Virus record (IMG/VR): IMGVR_UViG_3300025141_012580
Location: 1 to 34,247 of that record
Source of the DNA: a virus
Length of the DNA: 34,247 nucleotides
Direction: 5' to 3' (one strand)
Of this stretch, positions 8,260 through 30,839 are shown piece after piece (position 1 is the first letter of the stretch; every line of letters starts with the position of its first letter). The position numbers and the translations under genes were made by a program. Below the pieces are notes generated by a model. The model was not told the DNA's origin. It saw nothing but the letters and a program-made list of their open reading frames with translations, and did not search any database.

Positions 8260-9456
8260 TTACCCTAACTCTCTCATACTTCCATAATCCACGCCGGCGC
8301 TAATGTTTATTTCAAAGTTTCCAAGAGCCGTTTCCGAGAAAGTTAATGCCAGGAGAGGAATAAGATCTTTTTCCTCATGTGACAGATCAATTATCACACT
8401 ATCGTGCATTGTGAATGCCACAAATGATTTACAATTTTGCAACAAGCTGTGTAACCTATACATCTGTTTTAGTGTATTGTCTGAACTAGTGCTTTGCACT
8501 AAGTAATTAATTGCATGATGCGAGTCTGCTTCTATTTTTCTTCCGAAGGGAGTGCTTATTACACCATTTGAGTAGTACATCCCTTCTATAAATGCTTTGT
8601 CATAATATTTATCTGGAGCATTGTCTGTAGAGTTAGGATTATACAGCCAAGCAAATATTTTCTTTTTTGCCTCGTCCCTTGTTACTCTATCATTGTATAT
8701 GTTCTTTACATTCCAAGCATGGATATCTTCTCTTGGCTGTTTTTGGTTGCTTAAAGATAAAATCGTTCTTAGCTCTGCGGCGTTAAAATCAAACTCCACA
8801 AACCAATCGTTTGTTGGTTTCAGAACGGAGCGATATTTCTTATCCATTGTTAAGATTGGAAAAGTACCTTTTTTTGTTGTGAGGCGGCCGGTCTTGGTGC
8901 CAAATATATTGTAATCACAAATCTGCTTACTCTGGCTTACCTTCTGTATGAAATTTTTTGCTGCAAGATTGTGGGCCTGATTCCTCAGTGCCGAGAGATC
9001 TAAATTTAGCGGCTGTCTTTTAATTTCCTCTAGCACTTTCGTTAGCCTTACTAAAAACATATAATTTTCTGGTCTTTGGTAATTGTCAAATACATATTTG
9101 GTTATGTCATTTCTTATATCATAGTAACTTAATAAGAACTTGTGGGGTACAAGATTGAAAAAACAATTTTCGTCCAACGACACCTTTGCTTCCATAAAAG
9201 ATCTCAAAAAAGCCTTCAATTTTGTTGTGTGGATATCTAATCGGTCTTGCAGGTGAGGAGGGCATACCTCTTCGAACGACTGCCCGGCACAGTATAAGCT
9301 TGCAAAGTCAATTCTACTGCTGTTAATGCCCTCAAGAGCGCTCGAATATTTCCATGTCTTGCTCAAGTTTTCTGGCAATTCTTCTTCAAAAAATAGTTTG
9401 CCGGCCGCACAGTATCCCATACAATCTATTTTATTATCTATCAGTTGAAATAACAA
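8260..9456 (-). CDS. Family A DNA polymerase, polymerase domain only
   Basis: This protein of 398 residues carries the Pol I palm and fingers: TGRLTT (189-194); motif A DFNAAELR (223-230, with metal-binding D223); motif B R260-x3-K264-x3-F268-x3-Y272; TPFGRK (302-307); the AINYLVQSTSSD helix (315-326); and motif C HDS (351-353, with metal-binding D352). Motif C is normally HDE, so the Glu is replaced by Ser; motif B has Ala in place of the usual Gly after Phe268. The 180 N-terminal residues show no 3'-5' exonuclease motifs, so proofreading appears absent. The start is TTG at 9456, with AAGGA 7 bases upstream. The 5' nuclease is a separate gene (3373-4338). T4-like phages usually carry a family B polymerase, so this is a mosaic. 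Confidence 0.9.
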   Translation of the reverse strand: MLFQLIDNKIDCMGYCAAGKLFFEEELPENLSKTWKYSSALEGINSSRIDFASLYCAGQSFEEVCPPHLQDRLDIHTTKLKAFLRSFMEAKVSLDENCFFNLVPHKFLLSYYDIRNDITKYVFDNYQRPENYMFLVRLTKVLEEIKRQPLNLDLSALRNQAHNLAAKNFIQKVSQSKQICDYNIFGTKTGRLTTKKGTFPILTMDKKYRSVLKPTNDWFVEFDFNAAELRTILSLSNQKQPREDIHAWNVKNIYNDRVTRDEAKKKIFAWLYNPNSTDNAPDKYYDKAFIEGMYYSNGVISTPFGRKIEADSHHAINYLVQSTSSDNTLKQMYRLHSLLQNCKSFVAFTMHDSVIIDLSHEEKDLIPLLALTFSETALGNFEINISAGVDYGSMRELG

Positions 9457-9472: not shown

Positions 9473-10786
9473 TTAATAATCAGTCGTTTCTATCGCAACA
9501 TTTGACTGATATTCTGACTGTTGTCGCTTTTCAAGCTTCTCTGCATTGGGTAAGAATTTTTGTGGAGGTAGCCGATTTTCAAATGCTTCGTTCTTAAACT
9601 GTTCATTAATATAACTCACTGCGGCCTCGATGTCAAGATTTTTTTCTACGCCAACGGCTGTTTTTGTTATTCTGTCTATAATATTTTCGGTAAACTTGCC
9701 AATAGATTCAACCGCTTTAATTTCACAGTAAAGTTTAATCCATTGGGATGTTTTTATTTTTTCGTTTAACTGATCTACTGTATATCTTGTTCGCTTTATT
9801 TTTATGGGAGTGGTTCCGCCGGCGGTGCACCTAGGTGATCTGCGCTTGGCCACGGGATTCTTGTCAACAAACCCATTCCACATTGCCAGTATAAGCTTCT
9901 TTATATTTTCGATATCGCCGTGGAGCGCTGCTGTATAATGAGTATTCCACAAGTCTTCTTTCGAGGTTAGCCTCTCTTCCATGTAGCCGGCCATGGCCGA
10001 GGAGTCGAGGTTCGCCACTATTTGCCACGGCGCATTTTTATTAATCATAAACCCGTGCTTTAATGCAGCTTGTCTATAGAAATCAAATATGATCTCGTTC
10101 ATGAATACGGACTTAGCCTCATCGTCATCAAATTTAGTATCCTTTAATATAATTGACAAGCCGCTATTGATTACGGAACAATGACTGGATGACAGAATCG
10201 AAGTATGGGTTATTGGAACTTTTTTCAATATCTCCTGGTTGCTTCGGATGTGTTGTGAGACCTTGTCCATAAATTGTTCTATTGTTACTAAATCATTAAG
10301 CCTTCTCCAGTGTGATTTGCCTGTTGCTCTATGATCAAAAATGCCCATTTCGATACTTCGGACTGTATACACAACCGCTATACTGGCAGCAATCGTATGA
10401 GGTTTCCACGCGCTGATGACTTTTAGATTTACATCATCTGCCGAGATGCCACAACGAGATTCTCTTACAAGAGTTTCAAACTCCTTTATAAAATTTTCAT
10501 AAGCGTCCACTACGAAGTCTGCAGCCCTATGCCCTGATGCCTTTTTGTCAGCGGGAGTGCTTTTAAAATATCTTGTGCGGCCCGGCTGGAGAATTACAAA
10601 ATTTCTTTTTTCATCTGTCCTGCCATAGAATGACAAGTCGGTTCCTACAAAGAAATCTTGAACTCCGGAGGTGAACACCCCATCCTCTGTTAGGAAAAGT
10701 GCACCATCTCTGTACTCTTTGCGGTTTTCGAATAGCGCCCTGGCCTGTTGGCTATTTTTCCCTTTAAAATCATATTCATTTGCCAT
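9473..10786 (-). CDS. Protein of unknown function at the structural/replication boundary (437 aa)
   Basis: I do not recognise a family. The first 80 residues look like small beta elements (GALFLTEDGVFTSG, NFVILQPGRTRYF). Residues 85-330 are mixed alpha/beta, including HGFMINKNAPWQIVANLDS and AALHGDIENIKKLILAMWNGF. A Cys/Gly/Arg-rich turn (RRSPRCTAGG) occurs near residue 320, followed by IKIKRTRYTVDQLN, and the C-terminal 80 residues are charged and helical. There is no signal peptide or membrane helix. The start follows the hub-like gene after three bases with a GGAG site, and the stop is 17 bases before polA. The spacing suggests a virion or assembly protein expressed with the baseplate genes, but that is only context. 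Confidence 0.8.
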   Translation of the reverse strand: MANEYDFKGKNSQQARALFENRKEYRDGALFLTEDGVFTSGVQDFFVGTDLSFYGRTDEKRNFVILQPGRTRYFKSTPADKKASGHRAADFVVDAYENFIKEFETLVRESRCGISADDVNLKVISAWKPHTIAASIAVVYTVRSIEMGIFDHRATGKSHWRRLNDLVTIEQFMDKVSQHIRSNQEILKKVPITHTSILSSSHCSVINSGLSIILKDTKFDDDEAKSVFMNEIIFDFYRQAALKHGFMINKNAPWQIVANLDSSAMAGYMEERLTSKEDLWNTHYTAALHGDIENIKKLILAMWNGFVDKNPVAKRRSPRCTAGGTTPIKIKRTRYTVDQLNEKIKTSQWIKLYCEIKAVESIGKFTENIIDRITKTAVGVEKNLDIEAAVSYINEQFKNEAFENRLPPQKFLPNAEKLEKRQQSEYQSNVAIETTDY

Positions 10787-10789
10787 TAT

Positions 10790-13700
10790 TTAGTCTCCAG
10801 CCTCGGGAGTGCCCGGGTCGCCGAACGGTAACTCGCTAGCAGGGCCGGACCCAGGCTCGCCCGAAAGTGGCGCGATGGATAGTGCAAACGACGACGCGTC
10901 TTCAGAGGTAATGCGGGCGCCTTTTGCGAGTAGATTTTGTTCATTTCCGGAGGAAGCCTTGCAGATATCAAGTCTACCGGCAGAATGCCACACACACTTT
11001 AAAGTAGTTTCATAGAACTCTGCGGTGATAGTACTCTCAATATCCAGCACGACATAGTATCCGCCTAGGCCCAACAACAAAGCAGCATCAGTATAATCGG
11101 TGCCAAAATCGCCAGAACCAACACTGTCTGGATTTATGTATATATATTGTCCCGGCAGAAAGAAGGTGTTCCCCTGCATTATAACCGTTGCCTCATATCT
11201 CCCTCTCAGCTGATTATATCCAAAAGCTCCGTGACCCATAAGTCTTGCCTCGGCAAGGTATTCTTGATCTGTTCGTGTAAATTTAATACTCTTGATCATG
11301 CCCTGGTTTTGGCCTAAATAAAAATGAAATATTCCGCGAGACAAATCCCCTGGCATGGTTGGATTGTCGGCATATGCTTCTCCTAGCTGGGACTCAATCC
11401 AGCCGCCGGGCTCAGATGCCGCCTCCGCCTCTTCGTCGGTCTCTAGGCCCAATAAAGTAGACGACTCATAGCCCCGGGCATAAATAGCTATAAAGTGAAA
11501 AACTTCTGTATTGTCTTCGCTCGTTTCGAACAGAGATGTCTTGGGACTATCAGGATTCATGGCATCTCCCGCCAGAGCATTCATAATTTTATTAACATCG
11601 ATACGATAATTCGGCTCCTCGCCATCTGGAGGATCTGGATTTATGTACATCTCTGGCGAGGTTATAAATGATGCAGGATTTTCATACTCTTCCGTCTCCG
11701 GATTGTAATAGGCTGGAAGCGTAAAATTAGTAATTCCGATATCGAAGGTCTGCTCGGTAAAGTTCGACTGGGCGGGACTAGCATAACATCCTCTACCACC
11801 TAAAATATCTAACACCAAATCGTTTAATGTGTCATTTATAAATTGTTTTAAGTTATAGCTATAGACGCCCGGGCGTTGAATTTTGTTGATAAAAAACTCA
11901 TTCCATCTGGCCAAAGATATTGGAATGTCTGCGAGATTGACATCTCTTGTAATTCCTTTAACGGGATCAAAATATTCTACCGAACCAACTACAATATTAA
12001 GCTTATCAAACTTCCTCTCTTTCATGTTATCTAGTCTTTTTATAGCATCATATATTGTAACTGTTTGTTGATTTTGTGATGCATCTCCCATTGACTGCGG
12101 TACCGACGGGCCCATGATGCTACCGCCGGTATTGTTTGTCTGGCCTGGGACTGGGTTACTGTCTGCTTCAGGAGTATTTGGAGCTTCATAAAAAAGATCA
12201 AGAGCTGATAACGATCCAAAATACTGATATAAGCGATCTTGGGCGGCGCCGGCCTGTTTGGCCATATCGGAAAATGTATCTAGAGCGACATAAAATTGAT
12301 CTGGTGTAAAGGGAGGGCGCCACAAAGCTTTTCTGATTGCCCAATCCAACAGATCTCCGTAATAAATATATCTGAGCGGATAGGTGTTATTACCCACAGC
12401 CTGCTTGGTGGCAGCATCCTGATCGCCAACAGGATTTCCGCTGCCAAGATTGAGATCGTGCAACACCTGTCTTGTAACAGTGCTGTTAATAGCCCGCTGA
12501 GAGATGTGTGACTGCTGTTCATTGCCGGTGGCCAGCCCGGGTGACATTCCTTCGCCGATGGCCTGATCCATTTGTTCCCCGATTTCCCGGGCCTGCTCAT
12601 CATCGAGCGCTATCGAGCCCGGGGCGATTCCGGTGCCAGCCAAGGCCCCGGAGGAGCCCATGCCCGTGTCTAGGGAGAGGGTGCGGTCATTGCCCCCCGT
12701 GTCTTGTTGGGCCCACGGAGGCTCAACAAAAGTAATGGAAGTAACATCCTCGGCGCCGGTGGCGTTCTCGGTTTCCCGGCCGACAGCCATTGGATCAACT
12801 AAAATTGTTTTAATTCTAGATAGTCCAAGATGCGCACCTGGCCATCCCGTGCCTGGTATCGTTGTCAGGCCTCCGTGGTCGGCGCCGTGGGGGTAAGCAT
12901 AGCTCAGGGGCCACGGTGCACCGTATAATCCGGCCGGAGGCGTTCCTCCAGCATAGGCACTATCCGAAAAGGCTACGAGCCTCGTGAAGCCGGTTTGGGG
13001 GTCCTGGAGATGGCCACCGGCATTGCCGCCGGTGGCGGTGGCGGAATAATCTACAGGATCTTCTTTCAACTTTCTGCCGCGGTTGGTAACAACCCGGGTT
13101 TCGCCAAGATGTTGATCATTCAATGTTGGAATGTATGTTTCGTCCCATAACCATTTTTGTAATGTAGCATATCCCATGCCTCTCGTCAGGCCGCGCATTT
13201 CGTTTAGATGACTTATAAGTGCATCTTTCAGGCCCTCGTCGCTCAACTCATTGGCGGGCCCTTTGGATAGGCCCGCTCGCTGGGTGCCGCGGGCGGTGGG
13301 ATCGGCACTAGCTTCATATGCATTTTGCGGATCCGCTCTAATGTTCCCGTCTCCCGATACTATTTGATCGTCGCCAGTTTCCAATGCCTCTATCATTGCT
13401 TCAATCTGCGCCTGTCTCGTTCTTTCGAACACGGTTAAAAACAGGTCTGTATTTCTATCTTCTAATATGCCTTCGATTGCGGCCTTATACGATATATCAA
13501 GGCTCATGGTACCATCTTCGTTATAGGAAATAACATGATCATAGATTGTTAAGTATAATATTATGCTAGCACTTTTCAAATTTTGCCTTTGTGCTGGACT
13601 GAAAGGCGCGCCGTCCTTAAATTCCCAGCCGACCACGGCTTTAAGCTCAAAATACTCTGGATCATACAACCACATCCATTTACAGAAAGCCTCACTATCC

Positions 13701-14407
13701 GCATCGCTAACACCGCGAGGGACCGAAGCTTCTCCGGTGCTGGCTGTACGCATTATCAAATCTGCGAACTGGAAGTAACAGTCTTCTTTTTCTGCCAGAG
13801 TCCCGTCTTCCTTGGGTTCGGGAGGGTTTAATGTTGCTGAGAACGGGCCGCGCTTTTCAAATAATTCTCGGATATCATTAAGGTGTATGCTCAAATTCGC
13901 ACTTAAAAGATTGGCGGCCTCTGCCGGGTTTGTACCCTCATATTTCCAGCTAAACCCTCTTATACCCACTCCCGTGCCGCGGCCTGCGCGGTCAGACAAC
14001 ATCCTTTCTACTGGATTAGAGTGTTCTGCTAGTGCAGTGTTTTCTATGATTCCCGGGAAATTGTCAGCAAATAATAGTTCAACATCCCAAGTTTTGTCTT
14101 CGTGTTCGGCGCCGGGCTGGCCGAGATAAGTTTTGTATAGTCTAATTTTTGGTACTAAGAACGAAAGTTGGTATGGGGTAAGGTGTAATAACGAAGCCAG
14201 ATCCGATCTGCCTGTTAAGGCGCTCATCATCTCTGTCGGTTTGCCCTTAATTGGTATAAAGGATGTATATTTACAGTTTTCGTTAAAATGAGCTATGCCT
14301 ATCCCGTCGCCCTCATCGTCTGGGAGGGCCCCCTCTAACAGGTAATGTAGCAATAGGCATTGCTCATTTTTCTTTCTCCTCGCTAACCGGCTATCCGAAA
14401 CTGACAT
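10790..14407 (-). CDS. Very large baseplate hub-like structural protein (1205 aa)
   Basis: This large protein is probably part of the baseplate hub. The C-terminal 300 residues have the features of hub/gpD-like domains: a strand-rich region with IKSIKFTRTDQEYLAEARLM, then GRYEATVIMQGNTFFLPGQY followed by IYINP, and LGLGGYYVVLDIES. That PGQ-x-IYI-x-P...LGLGGYY pattern is typical of tail proteins that complete a beta barrel. The middle (about residues 450-780) is a low-complexity region rich in Gly, Ala, Pro and Thr with many turns. The N-terminal part (ALTGRSDLASLLHLTPYQLSFLVPKIRLYK) is helical. It lies after the LysM protein with a GGAG site. T4 gp27 and gp5 are far shorter, so this could be a fusion or an expanded hub. 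The exact equivalent is uncertain. Confidence 0.75.
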   Translation of the reverse strand: MSVSDSRLARRKKNEQCLLLHYLLEGALPDDEGDGIGIAHFNENCKYTSFIPIKGKPTEMMSALTGRSDLASLLHLTPYQLSFLVPKIRLYKTYLGQPGAEHEDKTWDVELLFADNFPGIIENTALAEHSNPVERMLSDRAGRGTGVGIRGFSWKYEGTNPAEAANLLSANLSIHLNDIRELFEKRGPFSATLNPPEPKEDGTLAEKEDCYFQFADLIMRTASTGEASVPRGVSDADSEAFCKWMWLYDPEYFELKAVVGWEFKDGAPFSPAQRQNLKSASIILYLTIYDHVISYNEDGTMSLDISYKAAIEGILEDRNTDLFLTVFERTRQAQIEAMIEALETGDDQIVSGDGNIRADPQNAYEASADPTARGTQRAGLSKGPANELSDEGLKDALISHLNEMRGLTRGMGYATLQKWLWDETYIPTLNDQHLGETRVVTNRGRKLKEDPVDYSATATGGNAGGHLQDPQTGFTRLVAFSDSAYAGGTPPAGLYGAPWPLSYAYPHGADHGGLTTIPGTGWPGAHLGLSRIKTILVDPMAVGRETENATGAEDVTSITFVEPPWAQQDTGGNDRTLSLDTGMGSSGALAGTGIAPGSIALDDEQAREIGEQMDQAIGEGMSPGLATGNEQQSHISQRAINSTVTRQVLHDLNLGSGNPVGDQDAATKQAVGNNTYPLRYIYYGDLLDWAIRKALWRPPFTPDQFYVALDTFSDMAKQAGAAQDRLYQYFGSLSALDLFYEAPNTPEADSNPVPGQTNNTGGSIMGPSVPQSMGDASQNQQTVTIYDAIKRLDNMKERKFDKLNIVVGSVEYFDPVKGITRDVNLADIPISLARWNEFFINKIQRPGVYSYNLKQFINDTLNDLVLDILGGRGCYASPAQSNFTEQTFDIGITNFTLPAYYNPETEEYENPASFITSPEMYINPDPPDGEEPNYRIDVNKIMNALAGDAMNPDSPKTSLFETSEDNTEVFHFIAIYARGYESSTLLGLETDEEAEAASEPGGWIESQLGEAYADNPTMPGDLSRGIFHFYLGQNQGMIKSIKFTRTDQEYLAEARLMGHGAFGYNQLRGRYEATVIMQGNTFFLPGQYIYINPDSVGSGDFGTDYTDAALLLGLGGYYVVLDIESTITAEFYETTLKCVWHSAGRLDICKASSGNEQNLLAKGARITSEDASSFALSIAPLSGEPGSGPASELPFGDPGTPEAGD

Positions 14408-16526: not shown

Positions 16527-18890
16527 TCAGTAGCCGCGGCGATTTAATTGTTTATTAATTTCGCCAGTAATCATGGGCACCACTTGGCGTGCGAGTGTTG
16601 AGCCGTGCATATTTAGCGTGACTTCAACATTTTCCGGACCAGCATAACCGCCTCCGCCCCCGCCGGTACCGCCGGCGCGGCTTTGTGCGGCTATTTGAGC
16701 CACGGAACGAACCAAGGCACTTAACTCATCCCCTTGAGAAACTCTACTAGCTGCAGATAACTTATTTGCTTGTTCGACCAAGTCGGTAACCTTTTGTACA
16801 TCATCTCTGGAGAGTTGCACAGCCGAGTTGACAACCCGGGCCACATTGTGGCTGGCAAAGGTTTCAACAGAAGCCCTAAATTGAAGCGACTTGTTTACAT
16901 CCACCTCGTTTAAAGCGCCGGCGATGTTTCTGATCGAGCCAGCTACCTTATTCATGCCGTGAGTATCAACATCTTGAAAGCGGTTAACGACACTTAATGC
17001 GTTTGCCATGGCGGGAGCGAGGGGGGACGCCGATGTAGATAGGTCGCGCAAGCCGGTAGCCGCATCACGGGCGGCGGCGGCGTTGCGCCTTAAACGCGAG
17101 GGCAGTGCCGCAAGGCCGTCATATAAAGAAGGGGAGTGTTGGGGTGTAAACAAGTTTCTGGCCAGCATGCTAAACGCCACCACCAAACCAACGCCGCCGA
17201 GCATACCGCCGCCAATTAGAGCCATTCGCAATCCCGTTGCGGCGCCGGCTGCGGCGGTGGCAGAGGCAGTCCAGGCATGCATGCCTGTCTGTAGTATTGG
17301 TAAAATGGCGCCAAGGAGCTTCAAAGCTCCCCAAACTTTTACCAAAGTTGTCGCTTTTCTCTTCCAGGCCTCAGCGTTGTCTGAAATATGTTTGACCCAC
17401 CCGACCAACTGGCTCATAAGCTGGCCCAAATACGGAGCTAACTGTTGCAGTGTTGCGTTCCATCTTTGCTGTAGGCTCATAAGGGCCATCTGCTGATCCG
17501 CCATGGCCTCTGCGGTCATAGCTTGATCCCGCATAGCCACTGTTCCAGTCTCTAGTCGACGGGACATCAATAAGGCCAACTCTCCCACTCCTTCTAAGCC
17601 TGCAGCTGATGCAATTGCACGCCTTTCATAATATTCCATCTGTTCGAACGCGCCTGCTGCTTCTTCTATCCCTTGTCTTAATTTTCGAAATCTTGCAGTA
17701 GGATCTGTGGTCAACAACATATCCAAGGAATTAAACAAGTCTTTACCCAAGACTGCGTTGAGTCGACCAGCGGCGTTTGCCGCGCCTTCGAAGGTGTCAA
17801 ACTGGGCGGTTATTGACATCAACCGATTCATTGATATGCCGGTTTCTTTTGATGCAATCGATAAATTTTGGAATGTGCTGATCATCTTATCTCCATAGAC
17901 GGCTAAGTCCATGCTCATTTCTGCGAAATCTTGTTGCACTATTCTTGGCGGAACGCCCAAAGAACGAGCAAAAGCATCTAGTTGCCGAACCGATTGAGCT
18001 GCCGTAGAGCCTGATTGATTCATGACTTTGTTCAACATTTGCATGCTTTGCGCAGCATGCTGTGCTGAGGTGCCACTTTGCATTAATACCGATATGGTTT
18101 CCGACATGGCGCGCTGGGCTTCTTGGCTCATATGAGTGAAATTGGTCACAGTGCTATATAATGTACCAAAAGCTTCGCCTACTTGTTGTGATGTAACCCC
18201 CGCACGAAGATTTGCGTAGGTGATCGCCTCTATTGAACTCTTATAGTCGTCTAATCTCCCCGTAGTGAGACCCACAGTTTGGGCGAACTGGGCCTGTGCG
18301 TTTTCAAGGCCCATGGAGATATCCCAACCTTTCTTAAGAACGATTAAAAATCCCTGCTCCATAAAGCTAGTGAGCGTATTAAAGGTTGTGGTCAGTCCGG
18401 CGGTGACATTTCGCAAAGAAATTAATTTTCTCTCTCCGGATCCGGCTTTGGCCGCTAGCGAGGCCAGTTGAAATATAAAATTCGATGAAGCGTCCGTGGC
18501 GATACCAAACGATCGAGCTAAATTACGGACGGCTCCTTCGGCTGCTTCCGAGACTCGCGCTTGCGCCTGCGTTTTGTCTATTATTGTATTAAGCTCCCCG
18601 TTCGCAACCTGCAGCCGCGCGGTCAGCTTGGCCACAGCTGCGGTATTTCCTTGGTTCGCCTGTATCTGTTGCTGAATCAGGGCTATCTGATCTGTTAGGC
18701 CTTTAATCAGAGATCTGGTAGCACGGTTTTGATAGTCTGTCGCCTGAGCCGTTCCCTTTAGGGCACTCGCCATCTGTCCCATTGCAGCCGCGGCTTTTTC
18801 GGAATCTGTTTTTATACGCTTAAGCAGTTCATCAAACTCTTCCGCAGTTTTCACATCTTTTGGGTTAACCGGACTTGGTCCATTTGCCAT
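16527..18890 (-). CDS. Tail tape measure protein
   Basis: This protein of 787 residues sits between the tail tube/chaperone genes and the baseplate genes, the standard place for the tape measure. The first 140 residues are helical and Gln/Ala-rich, with a long coiled-coil (ALIQQQIQANQGNTAAVAKL). Residues 150-450 are the Ser/Thr/Ala/Gln-rich helical body with repeated SQQV/AQ patterns. There are hydrophobic segments around residues 515-575 (LLGAILPILQ, then MALIGGGMLGGVGLVVAFSML), and a Gly-rich linker (GGTGGGGGGYAG) precedes a beta-like C-terminus (VEVTLNMHGSTLA). Using the usual 1.5 angstrom per residue, the tail would be roughly 115-120 nm. A TAGGAGA site precedes the ATG. The identification is strong from context, length and composition. 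Confidence 0.88.
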   Translation of the reverse strand: MANGPSPVNPKDVKTAEEFDELLKRIKTDSEKAAAAMGQMASALKGTAQATDYQNRATRSLIKGLTDQIALIQQQIQANQGNTAAVAKLTARLQVANGELNTIIDKTQAQARVSEAAEGAVRNLARSFGIATDASSNFIFQLASLAAKAGSGERKLISLRNVTAGLTTTFNTLTSFMEQGFLIVLKKGWDISMGLENAQAQFAQTVGLTTGRLDDYKSSIEAITYANLRAGVTSQQVGEAFGTLYSTVTNFTHMSQEAQRAMSETISVLMQSGTSAQHAAQSMQMLNKVMNQSGSTAAQSVRQLDAFARSLGVPPRIVQQDFAEMSMDLAVYGDKMISTFQNLSIASKETGISMNRLMSITAQFDTFEGAANAAGRLNAVLGKDLFNSLDMLLTTDPTARFRKLRQGIEEAAGAFEQMEYYERRAIASAAGLEGVGELALLMSRRLETGTVAMRDQAMTAEAMADQQMALMSLQQRWNATLQQLAPYLGQLMSQLVGWVKHISDNAEAWKRKATTLVKVWGALKLLGAILPILQTGMHAWTASATAAAGAATGLRMALIGGGMLGGVGLVVAFSMLARNLFTPQHSPSLYDGLAALPSRLRRNAAAARDAATGLRDLSTSASPLAPAMANALSVVNRFQDVDTHGMNKVAGSIRNIAGALNEVDVNKSLQFRASVETFASHNVARVVNSAVQLSRDDVQKVTDLVEQANKLSAASRVSQGDELSALVRSVAQIAAQSRAGGTGGGGGGYAGPENVEVTLNMHGSTLARQVVPMITGEINKQLNRRGY

Positions 18891-19327: not shown

Positions 19328-19510
19328 TTAACTTCTTTTTGACTTTGCATCTTCGTGAGCCTGCTTAACCTGCTCATTTTCTTTTTCAAATTGTTGTGCT
19401 AGCCGGTCTATAAACCATCTGCGTAGCGCAACTGGTAAGTTATAGGCCTCAAAGAAGCTCCAACCTCCATGATATTTTAAAAGAAAGAACTCTTCATACA
19501 CATTTGCCAT
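19328..19510 (-). CDS. Small tail assembly chaperone frame (gp51-like), perhaps made as a frameshift fusion
   Basis: This reading frame encodes about 60 residues: EEFFLLKYHGGWSFFEAYNLP, then LRRWFIDRL and a Lys/Glu-rich tail. The GGWSFFEAYNLPxxxRxWF pattern is typical of the second component of tail assembly chaperones that follow gp26-like genes (gp51 in T4). The ATG at 19510 has only a weak GATGAG site, and the frame is open upstream of it into the 3' end of the gp26-like gene. A +1 or -2 shift at the seven-T run (19535-19529) would join the two, adding GLTDEY before this ATG. Either the frame has a weak independent start or it is the C-terminal half of a longer chaperone form. A terminator follows. 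Confidence 0.75.
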   Translation of the reverse strand: MANVYEEFFLLKYHGGWSFFEAYNLPVALRRWFIDRLAQQFEKENEQVKQAHEDAKSKRS

Positions 19511-19514
19511 ATAC

Positions 19515-20366
19515 TCATCGGTTAGGCCAAAAAAAGTCCGCCGTAAATGGCACCTCCAGTCGGGATTCTGTCCCGCACTCGGCGCAGCTATATGGCAGAG
19601 TCATGTCTATGTTTGGTACTATTCTATTGTATGCAACTCGTAAATATTGTGCATCCAATGTTGGCATATTTTCAATAAAGTTGTTGAGCTGTGCTCGATC
19701 TGTGTGTCCGCCCACAGATACAACAAATTGTTTCATTTGTGTTGTCACTGGAGTTTCCATTAGATTGTGCTTTCGACGATTTTCAATAATTTTCATTACA
19801 TTTTTTTCATCGCGGCCAGTTAATAGCCTGACTTCTACTGCCAAGCCGCTCTTAGGCAAACCAACTGAGTATGTACCGTGCTCTGTTGGCCCACTCACAT
19901 TTAGCTCACCCCAATCATCGCCGTGATTTAGCTCCACTTCCATCAAATTGAAATTATTCGAACCGGGGGTGGAACAAGACGGACAAAGAACCTTAGTTTC
20001 ATACTCTGCTCCATATGCATGTATACGAGTCTGAATTAATATAGCATTTTTATCGCCAACCAGCAAACTATCGACATCAAACGACTTCTCTACCAATACG
20101 CTCTGGATGAGGCGATCGATCGCTAATCCCTTTTTTAATAAAGATCTAGATGTTAATATATCTTCGTCTTTTGCTGTCATGTGTCGTATTTCTACAACTT
20201 CCTTGTTACAAAGCGAGTGATCTTCTGGATAGTGCTTGCCGCGGCTTGGCAACTCCACAAATTCGGTGGGTACTACATATGATAAACCAGGGGCCTCATG
20301 CTGTTGCATGGTCGCTGGTACAGGCGGAGACGACGACTTCAGTCGATCCTTATTTTTTCTTGACAT
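19515..20366 (-). CDS. gp26-like baseplate/tail assembly chaperone with zinc ribbon
   Basis: This 283-residue protein is of the T4 baseplate family that includes gp26. The core pattern is FVELPSRGKHYP (36-47), VVEIRHMTAKDEDIL (57-71), the LLKKG turn (76-80), SLLVGDKNAILIQTRIHAYG (100-119), then EYETKVLCPSC. Two CxxC pairs (C128/C131 and C261/C264) probably bind zinc. The in-frame end is FFWPNR and a stop. By position, between the tail tube and the tape measure, it should act with the small frame that follows to handle the tape measure. Just before the stop there is a seven-T run that could allow a frameshift. The start has CGAGGT upstream, and a candidate promoter lies 45-73 bases before it. 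Confidence 0.85.
   Translation of the reverse strand: MSRKNKDRLKSSSPPVPATMQQHEAPGLSYVVPTEFVELPSRGKHYPEDHSLCNKEVVEIRHMTAKDEDILTSRSLLKKGLAIDRLIQSVLVEKSFDVDSLLVGDKNAILIQTRIHAYGAEYETKVLCPSCSTPGSNNFNLMEVELNHGDDWGELNVSGPTEHGTYSVGLPKSGLAVEVRLLTGRDEKNVMKIIENRRKHNLMETPVTTQMKQFVVSVGGHTDRAQLNNFIENMPTLDAQYLRVAYNRIVPNIDMTLPYSCAECGTESRLEVPFTADFFWPNR
19529..19535 (-). promoter_or_regulatory. Candidate ribosomal frameshift site (seven-T run)
   Basis: On the minus strand the gene reads GAC TTT TTT TGG CCT AAC CGA TGA. Dropping one base or stepping back two at the T run gives TTT GGC CTA ACC GAT GAG TAT ATG, which enters the small chaperone frame with no stop. A simple -1 shift does not reach that frame. Tail chaperones in many phages use programmed shifts at this place, and phage Mu is reported to use -2. 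The predicted fusion would be about 345 residues. Confidence 0.5.
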
Positions 20367-20490: not shown

Positions 20491-21153
20491 TTATCCCCAG
20501 AGTTTGCCGTTTACTGAGGAGCCTAAAAGATTCGGAGCGTCGGCATCGCCGCCTTCGCCGGAGGCCGAGCCCATGCGTTCATAGGTTGCAAAGTCATATC
20601 GAACACTAGTGTCTACTGTAAGCATTTCTTCGCTGCCATAGTCTAATCCAGACAAGCGCACACTCTTAAAGAACGCATTATGTAGCGTCCACTTTTCTAT
20701 AGGATCGCCATGTGCATTGACCATGGTAATAACCACATCCCCCAAAGCATCAATCATGCTTTGCTTGCCAAGGGTGACTAGATTTGGCTGGTCACTGAGA
20801 TCGCCGGAGGACCCGGGGATCTTATATCCGGCATCATAAAGCATGCCAAGGAATATATCGGCGGCGCCGTCTGCCCCAACCACATCAACGAAAGATAGAG
20901 AAACTTCTGACCATTCAACTCGGCCGGGATAGTAAAATTTGTGATTAATATATGTATGCTCCGTTTCTGATACCGATAAAGACGGTCTATCGACTCTCTT
21001 GCACGCATATTGTAGCGCGGCACCATCAGAAGACCAGCCGCCTTCGTTATCGCCGTACGAGCTTGCTCCTAAATTTGTGAAATGCACGAACCATCGATAA
21101 GCGCGCTTTGGCTCTTGAACGGGGGCTGCGTTTCTCCAGAATGTTGCTGCCAT
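20491..21153 (-). CDS. Tail tube protein (gp19-like)
   Basis: This protein of 220 residues forms the inner tube through which DNA passes. Recognisable parts are AYRWFVHFTNL near the start, then HKFYYPGRVEWSEVSLSFVD (70-89), ALGDVVITMVNAHGDPIEKW (135-154), TLHNAFFKSVRLSGLDYGSE (155-174) and a closing strand with SVRYDFATYE. This YYPG-x-x-EW...WTLxNAF...LDYGSE layout is typical of gp19-type tubes. T4 gp19 is 163 residues, so loops are slightly expanded. It follows the sheath by 57 bases with a GAGGAG site, and the gap holds a small ACTATATAGT palindrome. Confidence 0.9.
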   Translation of the reverse strand: MAATFWRNAAPVQEPKRAYRWFVHFTNLGASSYGDNEGGWSSDGAALQYACKRVDRPSLSVSETEHTYINHKFYYPGRVEWSEVSLSFVDVVGADGAADIFLGMLYDAGYKIPGSSGDLSDQPNLVTLGKQSMIDALGDVVITMVNAHGDPIEKWTLHNAFFKSVRLSGLDYGSEEMLTVDTSVRYDFATYERMGSASGEGGDADAPNLLGSSVNGKLWG

Positions 21154-21210: not shown

Positions 21211-24200
21211 TTAATCATCAAAAGAAGCACCACTCTTTGTAATAATGAAGTCAATAGCAATGAACTCAATTGCTCTTGCTGGCTTCAGATAAATTTGAGC
21301 GTATAGAATGTTTCTATCAATCAAATCGTCTGTAGTCGTTGTCTCATCGAGCTTGACCAAGAAATCAGTTAAACCAAACCGGGACTGCACATCAGACAAG
21401 AATGTTTCCGCTCTACTTCTAAACGAATCCCAAGTAGCTTGGACATTTTGACCAAACAGTGTTGTGTGAGCAATTAAAGAAATCTCTTTCTTAACATATA
21501 ACAACAAGCGACGAACATTGATTCTATCTAGTGCAGATGGCACCAGCTGTAGTGTCTTCTGTCCAAACACTACCAAACCCTCCGAAGGGAATTTGGCGAT
21601 AGGATTAACGCTTCGTTCATATAAATCATCACGGTCGCTAGAAGTAAGGCGCTCTCTGACATTTAAAATCTTTAAGCCGGCTGCGCCCGATCGGGCGCCC
21701 TGGCTAGTCAGTCCGCCGCGAACAAATCCTGCGGGGGCAAACCAAAGCTCTGCCTTAGACTGAGAGCCTCCCATAACTCCAACTCCTACCACCGATGGCG
21801 GGGCCCACAATCTCTGACCTGTTCTATTATCTCGGACCTGAACCCATGGATAATAGGCACAACCATAACTATTGTCAAGCTCTCTGTCTTTAAGCTTGCT
21901 GACGATATCCTTTATAGTTCCGCGTCTGTTGACCTCTGTCGCGTTCGATTCGGTGTATGGCACAAAACCACCCTCGACATCGATAACTGCCAAGGCGTCG
22001 GCACGGTCGGAACAAGTTGTAATCATCTTCTTTGTTAGATTGCGTTCAGTCAGCCCGGGCATCGATAGAATATTGTATTCAACATATTCTGGATCGGACA
22101 AGGTCTCAATTGCTCGGAGTACTGTGTTATATCCATAGTTTGTTGTCCTGTCTGCCGATGCGTCATCGAGATACGAATTTCTAAAGGGCTCTCTCTCTTG
22201 AATATCTAAGCCATCGTGACCGCCGTGGAATAAGGTTGTAAACTGGCCGTATCCTAAGTCCACTAATCCCAAGCTTCCTGTGTGGAAGGCGCCGGACACT
22301 GCAGTCCAACTTTTTCCATCTGGCGCTGGGCGGACAGTTAAAGCGGTAGAGTCTGTACTAGATTGCCTAGAGCCGGAAACATAGTATGCCTTTGGCTGCG
22401 TTACATTGTTGCTGGTGATGCCAGCATTGTATTCTAATTGTACATCGTCCAAAGTAAAGATCCAGGCATATTCCATATCATAGCTGTACGGGTCGTCTTC
22501 GTAAGCTGCGTAATAAGAAGGCAATCTCCTAAGCGTGTCAACAACGCCAGACTGTAACTGTAATGTTGGCGTATCATCGGAGTCGCTTGTAAGCTTGGAC
22601 CACTCGACTCCCATGTGAGAGTGGTGATCGGTGGTGCCATAGGAGTTGGCCTTGGCAACAAGTCGAGGGGCCGGGAACTCAAAGCTCCATCTACTGGCGT
22701 CACTTCCTAAAGAAACTTCGTATTGGCTAGCGTCTGGAACATCTCCTAGGGTCGAAGTAATTGTGTCCGGACCGTTGGCGTCAATCATGAAGTTTGGAAT
22801 CGCACCGGATGCCTCAACAAATGCATTGGCGAAGGCAGTGTCTGTACCGCCAGAGAACCCAGAAGTCGTGACATTGCTTAATCCGTCGGTGATCGTAGTA
22901 TTGCCAACTGTACCTTTAACGGTCTGCGTTAAGGTGAGTACATTGCTCGCAGCAGAAACGGTGATTGTTCCATTGTGACCATTCGCAGCTGCAATACAGT
23001 TCGCAAGAGACGCTGCTATAGCCGTAGCTCCGCCAGAGGAGCGCGCGAATTCGGGCGGTGAAGCGCTCGTATCCTCCGAAGTGGCGGCAGTATATGCCAC
23101 GCTTCTGCCTGCGGAGTCAATTAGCGTAAGAGTCTCGGAGGCGGAGGCTGCACCATTAACGGTTATCGTTGCTGTTGCAGCAGTTCCGGCGCCGGGTGAG
23201 ACGATTCCACTGGTGGAATTTACAAGCATGAAAGGCTTGAATCTTGGAGGACCATAGACCCCAAATGGCAATAACTCGGGAGCGACTGAGCCTCGCTTGA
23301 CGGACTCGTTCATTTCGATTCGTATATAGTCCGACATATTGTCATATGTGCCGTATTCTCTCGCGCGAACATTTACCGCATCCCATTGTACATATCTATC
23401 ACCAATTTTCTTAGCAATATAGTTTTCAGAATTAGGATCTAAGCTGCAGCCTGAGAAGGTTTCTACCGCTGTATCTGGCGAGTCTGGAGAGTTGATATAC
23501 CTCAGTACGACATCGAAACTTCCATACAAATATTTTGTATTATTAGACTTCTTGAGATTTTCAATCGATATTTTCATATTATTCTGCAGCCATTCTCCGT
23601 GGCCGCGGCCATGAAATCGGAAGAGCTTCTGTGCAGTGAGTGCATTATAATTTGATGGAGTACCGGTGTCCTGGGCAATGTACCAGCCAGTTTTCGCATC
23701 AGTATATCCCTCTCGATGCTGCTGCCACTCTGCATTTGAATTACCTAGGCCAAGGATTATGCCCATTTGGTAGCCGGCGTTTCCGCTGATTTCCGTTACA
23801 AGCTCTTGAACTTGCTGTTCATATGTTTCGCCAAGCCAATATGTTTTTCTGTCTCCGGAGGCCTCTGTAGTTCCGTTCGTCGCAGTAGGGTCCATGTTGA
23901 ATACGCCAGAATCTCTAATATGTCTTCCGGTATCGCCTTGAGTAAAATCAAAAACATGTTCCGAGGTAGTTCCTGCGCTGTCTGCTATAACTACCGTAAA
24001 TGTGGACGGATTGTCGCCGTCATTCGACCTGGATTTGACCACGCCGGCTGCGCCGGAGACCTCGGCCATCGCAGTATTAATTGCTGGGCCCTTCAGATAT
24101 ATTGCACCTTCTGTCAAATACCAAACAGCGGCCAAGGATCCAGTATAGTTCAGTGCGGTGGGAGTGCCAGATGGTGTTGTAGAAGTTGCTCCGTCTCCGG

Positions 24201-24672
24201 AACCACTGGCCACTATGAATAGTCCATAGGCGCCACCGTTTGAAGAGTAGGCTGTCGTATTGTTTAAAGCAGAGGCGGCGTGAGTTACAGAGGTTCCGCT
24301 AGAGTTCTTAGTATCCCAGCCGGCCTTTCCGGCGGTGGTTGCGCTCTGATCTTGTTCGCCCAATAATCTAAAAACGGTCGCAGGCGCGACTCCGGATTGA
24401 AGCCAAGCTTCCACTGCATATGCGCCATAAGTGGGGCCTCCATGTGGGTTCCCTCTCCAAGAATCGGTATCGCTACCGCCGGGGTGGGGTGGTCCAAATA
24501 TTTTTATAAAATCAGAATAACTGGTCACCGTTATGGGGCGCATCGCAGGACCCCTCTGATAGCGGCCAATAATTGCCGGCCCTCTCTCTGGCCGCGTGGG
24601 GGTGAGTACGGACTCATCTATCTCCCTAAGAAAAATTCCAGGCGATACAAACCTATAACCTTTAACTGACAT
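21211..24672 (-). CDS. Tail sheath protein (gp18-like), enlarged
   Basis: This is the contractile sheath subunit of 1153 residues. The N-terminus KGYRFVSPGIFLREIDES is the classic sheath start, followed by RGPAIIGRYQRGPAMRPI and FIKIFGPP. The C-terminal third (about 850-1150) is the conserved core: MPGLTERNLTKKMI, DALAVIDVEGG, YPWVQVRD, APPSVVGVGVM, LNVRERLTSSDRDDLYERSVNPI, and INVRRLLLYVKKEI. Compared with T4 gp18 (659 residues) it carries large insertions. One, at about residues 485-615, is a separate beta-rich domain (ATITVNGAASASETLTLIDS ... KGTVGNTTI ... FSGGTD) of a type seen as a decoration module in phage structural proteins. The start follows the gp15-like gene by 120 bases; AAGGAG lies upstream. 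The identification is firm. Confidence 0.93.
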   Translation of the reverse strand: MSVKGYRFVSPGIFLREIDESVLTPTRPERGPAIIGRYQRGPAMRPITVTSYSDFIKIFGPPHPGGSDTDSWRGNPHGGPTYGAYAVEAWLQSGVAPATVFRLLGEQDQSATTAGKAGWDTKNSSGTSVTHAASALNNTTAYSSNGGAYGLFIVASGSGDGATSTTPSGTPTALNYTGSLAAVWYLTEGAIYLKGPAINTAMAEVSGAAGVVKSRSNDGDNPSTFTVVIADSAGTTSEHVFDFTQGDTGRHIRDSGVFNMDPTATNGTTEASGDRKTYWLGETYEQQVQELVTEISGNAGYQMGIILGLGNSNAEWQQHREGYTDAKTGWYIAQDTGTPSNYNALTAQKLFRFHGRGHGEWLQNNMKISIENLKKSNNTKYLYGSFDVVLRYINSPDSPDTAVETFSGCSLDPNSENYIAKKIGDRYVQWDAVNVRAREYGTYDNMSDYIRIEMNESVKRGSVAPELLPFGVYGPPRFKPFMLVNSTSGIVSPGAGTAATATITVNGAASASETLTLIDSAGRSVAYTAATSEDTSASPPEFARSSGGATAIAASLANCIAAANGHNGTITVSAASNVLTLTQTVKGTVGNTTITDGLSNVTTSGFSGGTDTAFANAFVEASGAIPNFMIDANGPDTITSTLGDVPDASQYEVSLGSDASRWSFEFPAPRLVAKANSYGTTDHHSHMGVEWSKLTSDSDDTPTLQLQSGVVDTLRRLPSYYAAYEDDPYSYDMEYAWIFTLDDVQLEYNAGITSNNVTQPKAYYVSGSRQSSTDSTALTVRPAPDGKSWTAVSGAFHTGSLGLVDLGYGQFTTLFHGGHDGLDIQEREPFRNSYLDDASADRTTNYGYNTVLRAIETLSDPEYVEYNILSMPGLTERNLTKKMITTCSDRADALAVIDVEGGFVPYTESNATEVNRRGTIKDIVSKLKDRELDNSYGCAYYPWVQVRDNRTGQRLWAPPSVVGVGVMGGSQSKAELWFAPAGFVRGGLTSQGARSGAAGLKILNVRERLTSSDRDDLYERSVNPIAKFPSEGLVVFGQKTLQLVPSALDRINVRRLLLYVKKEISLIAHTTLFGQNVQATWDSFRSRAETFLSDVQSRFGLTDFLVKLDETTTTDDLIDRNILYAQIYLKPARAIEFIAIDFIITKSGASFDD

Positions 24673-28949: not shown

Positions 28950-30839
28950 CTAGCTTGTGGCGCCAGCCTCACCCAGTAGACCGCGAACGATGACTAATCC
29001 ATACATATCAGGACGGACCATCTTCTTACCGTAGCGCGTCATGACGCCCTTACGGGGTACGAAGTCTTCCGTTCCGAAGATTGTAGGAGTGGTCTGCAGC
29101 GGCACATAAGGTGCGTACACATAACCGCTCTCAAGGAAGCTGTTACCGCGTCGTCCAACGAGGACCACATTACGGGGGAAGTACGGGTCAACCCAAACAT
29201 CCCACTTCTTGGAGATCGAGCCAGCGTTAACTGCCCCGACAGTGCCCTTATCGGCATCAGCGGTAATGTTAGCGCGGAATCCACTAGTGAACTCAAGGAT
29301 ATTGGCAACTTCGGGGCCTACGACCAAGAAGTTAGCTCCACCCCGCAGAGTCTTGCGGTGGATCTGTGCCGACACATCGTTGACGGTCTCGACAAGAGTC
29401 TCGTACCACTCGCTAACTGTACCGGTGAAGTCGGGCGCAGCAGAGCTAGCTCCGATTTCAACGCCAGATACGCGATTGAGGAACATACCCGGGGAACGAG
29501 CCCAGTAATATGTACCAGCAGTGGCGCCTCTAATGAGGTCGTTGACGATCTCGCGGTCAATCTCAAGAGCAATTTGCTCAGAGAGAATGCCAGTAAGCTC
29601 GACCTCGGCATCAAGGTTGTGATAGGCATTAAGATCCTGTCCCAACTCTGGTGTCCACTTGGCCTTCAGCTTCTTGGTGATCGCGGTGATTGCTGTTGAA
29701 TCGACCTTGATGTCGATCTCGGGGATTCCCGGATCATTTTCAAGACCCCAAACATCAGCACCAACGACGGCACCAAGTGCTCTCTCGCCGACATTATCGA
29801 GGTTGTCGATGATCGGATAAGAGAAAGACTTACCGGTCGCGCCGGCGACATCTGTAGATGCTCCGTTGTTTTCGATCAACGAGGCGTCGATTGTGCCAGC
29901 CGCGGTGGAACCAACAGCCTGCCAAACCATGATGACAGATGCATCACCCTGAGAACCAAGATGGTTATCAAGATCTAGCTGACGAAGTCCCTTACCTACC
30001 GAGTTCTGATCGACAATATCTGTCAATCGGCGAACCAGTCGGCACTCGCTTCTATCGACATCAGACTTATGTGTCGCGCCAGAACCTGTTGCTTCAATTG
30101 CAATTAGGTTATCGGTGTTAAGTCTAGAACCAGATGCATGCAGCCACTGTCCAGAAGCAGAAGCTGCTGTGATGACTACAACGGAACCAGAAAGATCTGG
30201 ATCGTAGCGAACCAGTTTGTCGGCTGTGAGCGTTGTGCTTCCGCCGTGATATCCACTAAATGTGAACTCATATGCGGATCCGCCAGAGGTTTTAACGCCA
30301 TCACCAATAGTACCCTGCCAGACAACATCGAGATCAAGCTGAGTTGATCCTGTTGGAGACGAGTAGCCCTGATTCATGGAATAAAATCCAGCTTCGGCGA
30401 AAGAACCAGTAAGGCTTACACCTCCCTGGAGTTCCTGACCGACCACGCCGCCACCGAAGAGCGACTGATCACCGTCGGAGCTACCGCGAGTGGTAGATCC
30501 AGGTGTGAACTGGAAGTCAAGGAAGAAGATGAGGCCCGAAGGTAAACTCATCGGCTGAACCGAGACAAGATCGTTAGCGATTAAGCCACCGAAAACTCGG
30601 CGCACGATTGGGAATGCAACAGATGCAAAACCCTCGACATCTCCACCAGCCATGGTAGATGCCTCGCGCAAAAGCTCTTTAGCTTGATTTTCAAGCAAAC
30701 GAGCCATGTTAGAACGGTTATTGTCGTTGCTAAGACCTTCTAAAAGACCGGTGCGTTCCCACTTAGAGAGTAGAGCGCTGCCTTCCTTGCCGAGATCCCT
30801 GCTGACAATACCTTCTGTTAATTTCTTTAAAACAGACAT
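28950..30839 (-). CDS. Major capsid protein (gp23-like)
   Basis: This is the 629-residue HK97-fold shell protein. After an N-terminal delta-like region comes NMARLLENQAKELLREA (44-60), then VAFPIVRRVFGGLIANDLVS (74-93) and VQPMSLPSGLIFFLDFQF. In T4 gp23 the same places read VRRAIPNLIAFDI and VQPMNSPTGQVFAL. The C-terminal half has LGQDLNAYHNLDAEVELTGI, SEQIALEIDREIVNDL, and the P-domain strands ending YGLVIVRGLL. The N-terminal segment has KWERTGLLEG and several L-x-E triplets (LLE34, LLE50, LRE59) that could be prohead-protease sites; T4 gp23 loses its first 65 residues this way. AAGGAG precedes the ATG. It follows the gp22-like gene by 41 bases and has its own terminator. Confidence 0.95.
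   Translation of the reverse strand: MSVLKKLTEGIVSRDLGKEGSALLSKWERTGLLEGLSNDNNRSNMARLLENQAKELLREASTMAGGDVEGFASVAFPIVRRVFGGLIANDLVSVQPMSLPSGLIFFLDFQFTPGSTTRGSSDGDQSLFGGGVVGQELQGGVSLTGSFAEAGFYSMNQGYSSPTGSTQLDLDVVWQGTIGDGVKTSGGSAYEFTFSGYHGGSTTLTADKLVRYDPDLSGSVVVITAASASGQWLHASGSRLNTDNLIAIEATGSGATHKSDVDRSECRLVRRLTDIVDQNSVGKGLRQLDLDNHLGSQGDASVIMVWQAVGSTAAGTIDASLIENNGASTDVAGATGKSFSYPIIDNLDNVGERALGAVVGADVWGLENDPGIPEIDIKVDSTAITAITKKLKAKWTPELGQDLNAYHNLDAEVELTGILSEQIALEIDREIVNDLIRGATAGTYYWARSPGMFLNRVSGVEIGASSAAPDFTGTVSEWYETLVETVNDVSAQIHRKTLRGGANFLVVGPEVANILEFTSGFRANITADADKGTVGAVNAGSISKKWDVWVDPYFPRNVVLVGRRGNSFLESGYVYAPYVPLQTTPTIFGTEDFVPRKGVMTRYGKKMVRPDMYGLVIVRGLLGEAGATS

Follow-up and report, generated by a model that had tools for sequence, protein, structure and literature searches.

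The window, i.e., the whole stretch of 34,247 nucleotides analyzed, is a 34 kb record of a virus of bacteria, probably a fragment, and contains on its minus strand a module for a contractile tail. The genes of this module are ordered as sheath, tube, gene 1, gene 2, a 120-aa ORF and tape measure. The tail sheath gene is at 21211-24672 and the tail tube gene at 20491-21153; the tape measure gene (16527..18890) was identified by a match to PHROG 167 (E 7.8e-7). Genes 1 and 2 are thus located between the tail tube and tape measure genes, the position of tail chaperones, with only the 120-aa ORF separating gene 2 from the tape measure gene, whose product would be the expected client of the chaperone.

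The window also encodes a major head protein and a head-tail adaptor. Concerning these other genes, the sheath protein is 1153 aa long, with the sheath domains covering only residues 850-1144 and about 800 N-terminal residues unexplained. The major head protein (28950-30839, 629 aa) matches PHROG 138 on residues 369-606 and another head family on residues 31-100, a pattern pointing to an extra domain or to a long insertion. Two ORFs near the tail genes, 10790-14407 (1205 aa) and 9473-10786 (437 aa), gave no PHROG match, and an ORF with a TTG start that adjoins the structural genes (8260-9456, 398 aa) resembles a DNA polymerase fragment (PHROG 17).

Gene 1 (19515..20366, minus strand) codes for a 283-aa protein, a putative gp26-like short tail assembly chaperone (TAC-N). 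It matches PF12322 (T4_baseplate, the T4 gp26 family) with 60.4 bits (E 2.5e-16), above the curated cut-off of 24.5, and PHROG 150 with E 7.1e-21. Its AlphaFold2 model had a pLDDT of 89. With Foldseek, the top match of the model was the HK97 tail assembly chaperone 2ob9, a weak one (E 0.42), and with VIA-align YqbN (3klu) and 2ob9 gave Z values of 5.4 and 4.4, both within the range of unrelated matches. So, the matches to solved structures were weak, although the top ones were phage proteins. One gp26-like copy was found in each of 10 records, five of them public phage genomes, with no separate long gene found in them.

The 3′ end of gene 1 reads GCG GAC TTT TTT TGG CCT AAC CGA TGA. The final TGA (19515..19517) is the 0-frame stop that would be bypassed after a shift; in relatives it varies (TGA, TAA, TAG), always just past the shift site. 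The candidate +1 site TTT TTT TGG (19527..19535, minus strand) would place TTT 19535-19533 in the E site, TTT 19532-19530 in the P site and TGG 19529-19527 in the A site, and it is the only in-frame TTT-T of gene 1. A preliminary description of this DNA had placed a T run five codons before the stop of the first gene, with the second frame open from that run through its own, weakly served ATG and with no connection in the -1 frame, and each of these points is borne out. The run of seven T spans 19535->19529, and its second TTT is exactly five codons before the stop. The ATG of gene 2 (19510) lies 4 nt past that stop in the +1 (equal to -2) frame relative to gene 1, and this frame runs open from 86 nt ahead of that stop to 187 nt past it. 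The -1 frame closes 7 nt short of the gene 1 stop, which leaves the window outside the -1 slippery class (X_XXY_YYZ with the second ORF in -1). The anti-Shine-Dalgarno energy is -1.5 kcal/mol at the gene 2 ATG versus -6.0 kcal/mol at the gene 1 ATG.

Read from this ATG, gene 2 is an annotatable ORF of 60 aa (19328..19510, minus strand), which is probably not an independent gene. Read after the shift, the second part (TAC-C) comprises 66 codons (19331..19528, minus strand), GLTDEYMANVYEEFF...KSKRS, followed by the stop 19328-19330. The predicted fusion (TAC-NC), translated with one four-base step at F278, has 345 aa (19331..20366, minus strand). The N and C parts were modelled apart; a single model of the fusion was dropped, the mixed alignment being misaligned. 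In TAC-C, helices are predicted at residues 4-21 and 33-65. DUF6760 (PF20546) was considered as a name for gene 2 and rejected, as its score in the window was 21.5 bits, with a cut-off of 27, and gives only a hint of kinship; a literature search for DUF6760 returned no match.

Conservation of the junction

Eighty relatives of 78% to 46% identity were taken from viral contigs and yielded, together with the window, 63 distinct junctions. The overlapping-frame pattern was found in 80/80 of these first relatives, down to 46% identity, and the +1 frame was open in all of them. The site was TTTTTTTGG in 57 of the 63 junctions and TTCTTTTGG in the other six. The P-site Phe codon was TTT in 63/63, versus 74% TTT and 26% TTC elsewhere in gene 1; the search patterns used for finding relatives included PFTADFFW, which selects Phe-Phe-Trp and not TTT over TTC. 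A run of seven T elsewhere in gene 1 occurred once in total across 61 loci.

The +1 frame of the close relatives reads G-L-x-x-x-Y-(M/I)-x-x-(V)-Y-E, with no indel between the site and the VYE motif. The Tyr lying past the 0-frame stop and ahead of the ATG position is present in 60/61 relatives, and since both of its codons are in use (TAC 31, TAT 29), the constraint acts on the protein. The position of the gene 2 Met is occupied by M in 29 of 61 close relatives and by Ile, Ala or Leu (ATC/ATT/ATA, GCT or CTT) in the other 32. As far as the VYE motif, 30 of the 63 junctions lack an ATG, GTG or TTG, and in two of the second ORFs, both of full length, none of these codons occurs anywhere. Where the ATG is present (29 relatives), the mean anti-Shine-Dalgarno energy is -1.7 kcal/mol. 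As a control, the neighbouring junctions of the same loci were open across the upstream stop in only 9/58 and 0/59 cases. The pattern at this junction is far beyond chance.

Such a comparison of homologous pairs had been proposed in the preliminary description, which would have taken as contrary evidence relatives whose second frame is interrupted between the T run and the second ATG, or which have no T run and a strong ribosome site for the second gene. The shift site and the open frame were conserved in every relative having both parts, a stop between site and second start was seen in none of them, and no strong gene 2 ribosome site was found, about half of the close relatives lacking even a start codon there.

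The comparison was extended to 371 loci, collected from named phages and from viral contigs, the latter scanned three times with profiles and once with a single protein. Gene 2 was sought with an iterated HMM among all ORFs in the neighbourhood of the gene 1 end, whatever their frame and with neither overlap nor openness required. It was found in 359/371 loci, 252 times in +1, 107 times in -1 and never in frame; six loci had no gene 2 match, three of these being contig ends. In all the complete junctions with both parts (359/359), the gene 2 frame was open across the gene 1 stop. Among 209 distinct +1 junctions, the P-site tetramer was always TTT-T, TTT-C or CTT-T, a result that the typing of sites may have biased, since the final codons of gene 1 were searched for just these tetramers; all 209 had such a tetramer, and the printed products align at the same place. 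The A-site codons were TGG (165), TAC (26), CGN (10), CTA (4) and a few others. Of 77 distinct -1 junctions, nearly all carried the heptamer T_TTT_TTC on the homologous Phe-Phe codons.

Named isolates occur on both sides. The +1 arrangement was found in Microcystis phage Mel-JY01 and Rhodothermus phage RM378 (both TTTTTTTGG), Flavobacterium phage immuto (TTTCTTTGG), Bacillus phage SP-15 (TTTTTTCAC), Streptococcus phage GXN1 (TTCTTTCGT), Listeria phage LIS04 and the huge phage LR756508 (TTTCTA). The -1 arrangement with T_TTT_TTC was found in cyanophages S-SSM4 and Sf-FS3 and in Paride, Atu_ph07, Serratia BF, Mendera and PBECO4, and with T_TTT_TTT in Stenotrophomonas RAS14. Public phage records start the second part internally in SP-15 (SP15_046) and immuto (immuto35A_232) and leave it unannotated in LIS04, GXN1, S-SSM4 and Paride.

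Some members depart from these patterns. Vibrio phage D510 and Ackermannviridae phage Marshall (L386 1369-1423, L387 1459-1513) have the -1 frame with CTT TTC or ATT TTC and no canonical heptamer. In one -1 clade (L085, L181-L251) about 30-70 nt separate the shift site from the 0-frame stop, so that the short form ends in a basic extension of at most about 20 residues. The only -1 member within the +1 clade (L148, one contig, junction near 2747) has A_AAT_TTC and could reflect either a genuine switch or an assembly error of a single base. A genome scan for extracellular injection systems yielded four loci, phage-like genes in metagenome bins: three have a shift site (two +1, one -1), and the fourth (L376), in the -1 frame, lacks a canonical heptamer. 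A search for the family of L376 came back empty.

On a tree of 91 representatives, built by a quick method, three switches of direction are needed, two of which are imposed by well-supported branches. We consider it likely that, at the homologous Phe-Phe site of this T4-type chaperone, the direction has switched more than once between -1 (U_UUU_UUC) and +1 (UUU_Y/CUU_U), and that it is the fused product and its ratio that are selected, not the direction of the slip.

A predicted +1 shift and its alternatives

The preliminary description had put forward a programmed shift fusing the two proteins, and the conserved site, the open frame and the missing gene 2 starts of the relatives argue for it. 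From the comparison of these sequences, we estimate a probability of roughly 0.9 that genes 1 and 2 are one expression unit, in which a ribosomal +1 shift gives the long chaperone TAC-NC. Most ribosomes would stop at the end of gene 1, producing the short chaperone TAC-N. A minority would pause at GAC UUU UUU UGG with tRNA-Phe paired to the second UUU, slip one base forward, from UUU to UUU, and go on in the +1 frame, adding 66 residues to give TAC-NC. In the window, the P-site tRNA-Phe is proposed to re-pair on TTT 19531-19529. In the -1 lineages, the fusion would be kept by shifting at the homologous U_UUU_UUC.

A simple P-site slip is proposed because the natural variants TTC TTT TGG, TTT CTT TGG, TTC TTT CGT and ACC TTT CTA, which contain no long run, allow +1 re-pairing only, and because CUU_U and UUU_U are the known class of release factor 2 shift sites, CUU_U being the classical one and UUU_U occurring in a few species (PMC5009743). 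Concerning possible stimulators, no conserved RNA structure was found in 61 gapless sequences (alifold energy 0), and an upstream internal Shine-Dalgarno was only slightly better than background (-3.2 vs -1.75 kcal/mol) and not conserved across clades. With no RNA structure and near-background anti-Shine-Dalgarno energies, no stimulator is evident. Besides, the A-site codon UGG is not known to be decoded slowly in the host.

The direction had been left as +1 or -2 in the preliminary description, and only the first of these options withstood the comparison. A ribosomal -2 shift reaches the same frame with one extra Phe (ADFFFGLTDEY instead of ADFFGLTDEY), Mu offers a precedent for it (PMC5009743), and the TTTTTTT of the window would permit re-pairing of the P-site tRNA at -2. 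It is nevertheless very improbable, as -2 gives no acceptable pairing in TTC TTT TGG (6/63 close junctions), TTT CTT TGG (29/209 distinct +1 junctions) or TTC TTT CGT, whereas +1 re-pairing is always kept; in the family members with TTCTTTT or TTTCTTT only a +1 shift re-pairs.

The same variants bear on transcriptional slippage, in which the loss of one base or the gain of two on the seven-T run would generate fusion mRNAs. The homopolymer is present in 57/63 close junctions, as slippage would have it, but several lineages have only four T (TTCTTTT) or three (TTTCTTT, TTCTTTC, TTTCTA), and slippage has no need for the constant reading phase of the site. We regard it as less probable still than the -2 shift. 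The least probable of the alternatives is that of two separate genes, with ribosomes that terminate at the nearby stop re-initiating on the ATG of gene 2: the distance of 4 nt in the window and the M found at that place in 29/61 close relatives would suit it, but there is no Shine-Dalgarno at gene 2, no ATG, GTG or TTG is available there in 30/63 junctions, the codons ahead of the ATG show constraint on the encoded protein, and the predicted helix 4-21 starts ahead of Met7. Low-level re-initiation may occur alongside the +1 shift.

Should the +1 shift be confirmed, the +1 branch would rank among the larger viral sets of +1 programmed frameshifts, without an evident stimulator, offering hundreds of natural site variants with a simple, testable rule. 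Since carriers such as Mel-JY01, immuto, SP-15 and RM378 are cultured, the shift would be directly measurable. The annotation of public genomes, where the second part is a truncated hypothetical gene or is missing, would be corrected.

Relation to T4 and to other tail chaperones

The profile of the fusion was compared by hhalign with the T4 gp51 family, giving a probability of 84.5% (E 7e-6) over 195 columns that include both C-termini, where 'GGWSFFEAYNLPVALRRW' aligns on 'SNYSLNSISKMIPAERGF'. The fusion thus has the same N- and C-terminal order as gp51 in one chain, and from this alignment gp51 resembles the long form as a single gene. In addition, a 63-aa cyanophage gene named hub assembly catalyst matches the TAC-C HMM (4.5e-9). 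The term gp51-like, applied earlier to the 60-residue protein, suits it as a counterpart of the gp51 C-terminal domain and not of whole gp51. T4 genes 26 and 51 are separate, as the preliminary description has it, and they are divergently transcribed, so T4 cannot join them by frameshift. It would seem that phages keep the pair of long and short chaperones and change the route to it: +1 shift, -1 shift or, in T4, two genes.

The chaperone role is suggested by gene position, by family and by the published T4 proposal. By analogy with lambda G/GT, TAC-N would coat the tape measure protein, and the extension would recruit tail-tube subunits, the two forms being made in a fixed ratio. Vladimirov, Gautam and Davidson reportedly described in 2022 frameshifted chaperones in several T4-like groups at poly-T, with a gp26-like TAC-N and gp51 as TAC-NC. 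The unification of the T4-type pair with the G/GT chaperones, advanced in the preliminary description, is not new, as that paper (Virology 566:9-15) proposed it according to those citing it (PMC10885494, PMC12846349). With the 2022 proposal, as it is represented there, the present system shares the gp26-like TAC-N, gp51 as TAC-NC and the poly-T frameshift. The T4-like signals are called -1 in the citing paper (PMC12846349), whereas here the shift would be +1, with another codon rule and in other lineages, T4 itself having separate genes.

Tail chaperones are reviewed as using -1, -2 or +1 shifts depending on the phage, with T4 named as an exception (PMC5009743). Lambda G/GT, with the long form at about one in thirty (PMC5009743), and other siphophage and myophage systems (P2 E/E′, HK97) have in common with the present system the short and long forms, the location at the 3′ end of the first gene and the adjoining tape measure gene, but they use a -1 shift and belong to different sequence families. 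The chaperone of the haloarchaeal myovirus HSTV-2 is likewise predicted to use +1 (PMC5009743); the direction is the shared feature, the host being archaeal and the prediction concerning one virus. In the prfB +1 frameshift (CUU_U, rarely UUU_U; PMC5009743) the same P-site tetramers re-pair at +1, but prfB has UGA in the A site and an internal Shine-Dalgarno, while here the A site holds a sense codon (UGG, UAC, CGN, CUA) and no Shine-Dalgarno is conserved. The Vandenendeviridae TAC (PMC12846349) also has a poly-T and a conserved shift found by comparison, and it is set apart by its description only, as a -1 shift at GTTTTT in other phage families. Judged against the 2022 paper as citing papers reflect it, three things appear to be new: the large size of the +1 branch, the codon rule that this branch follows and the changes of direction at a single homologous site.
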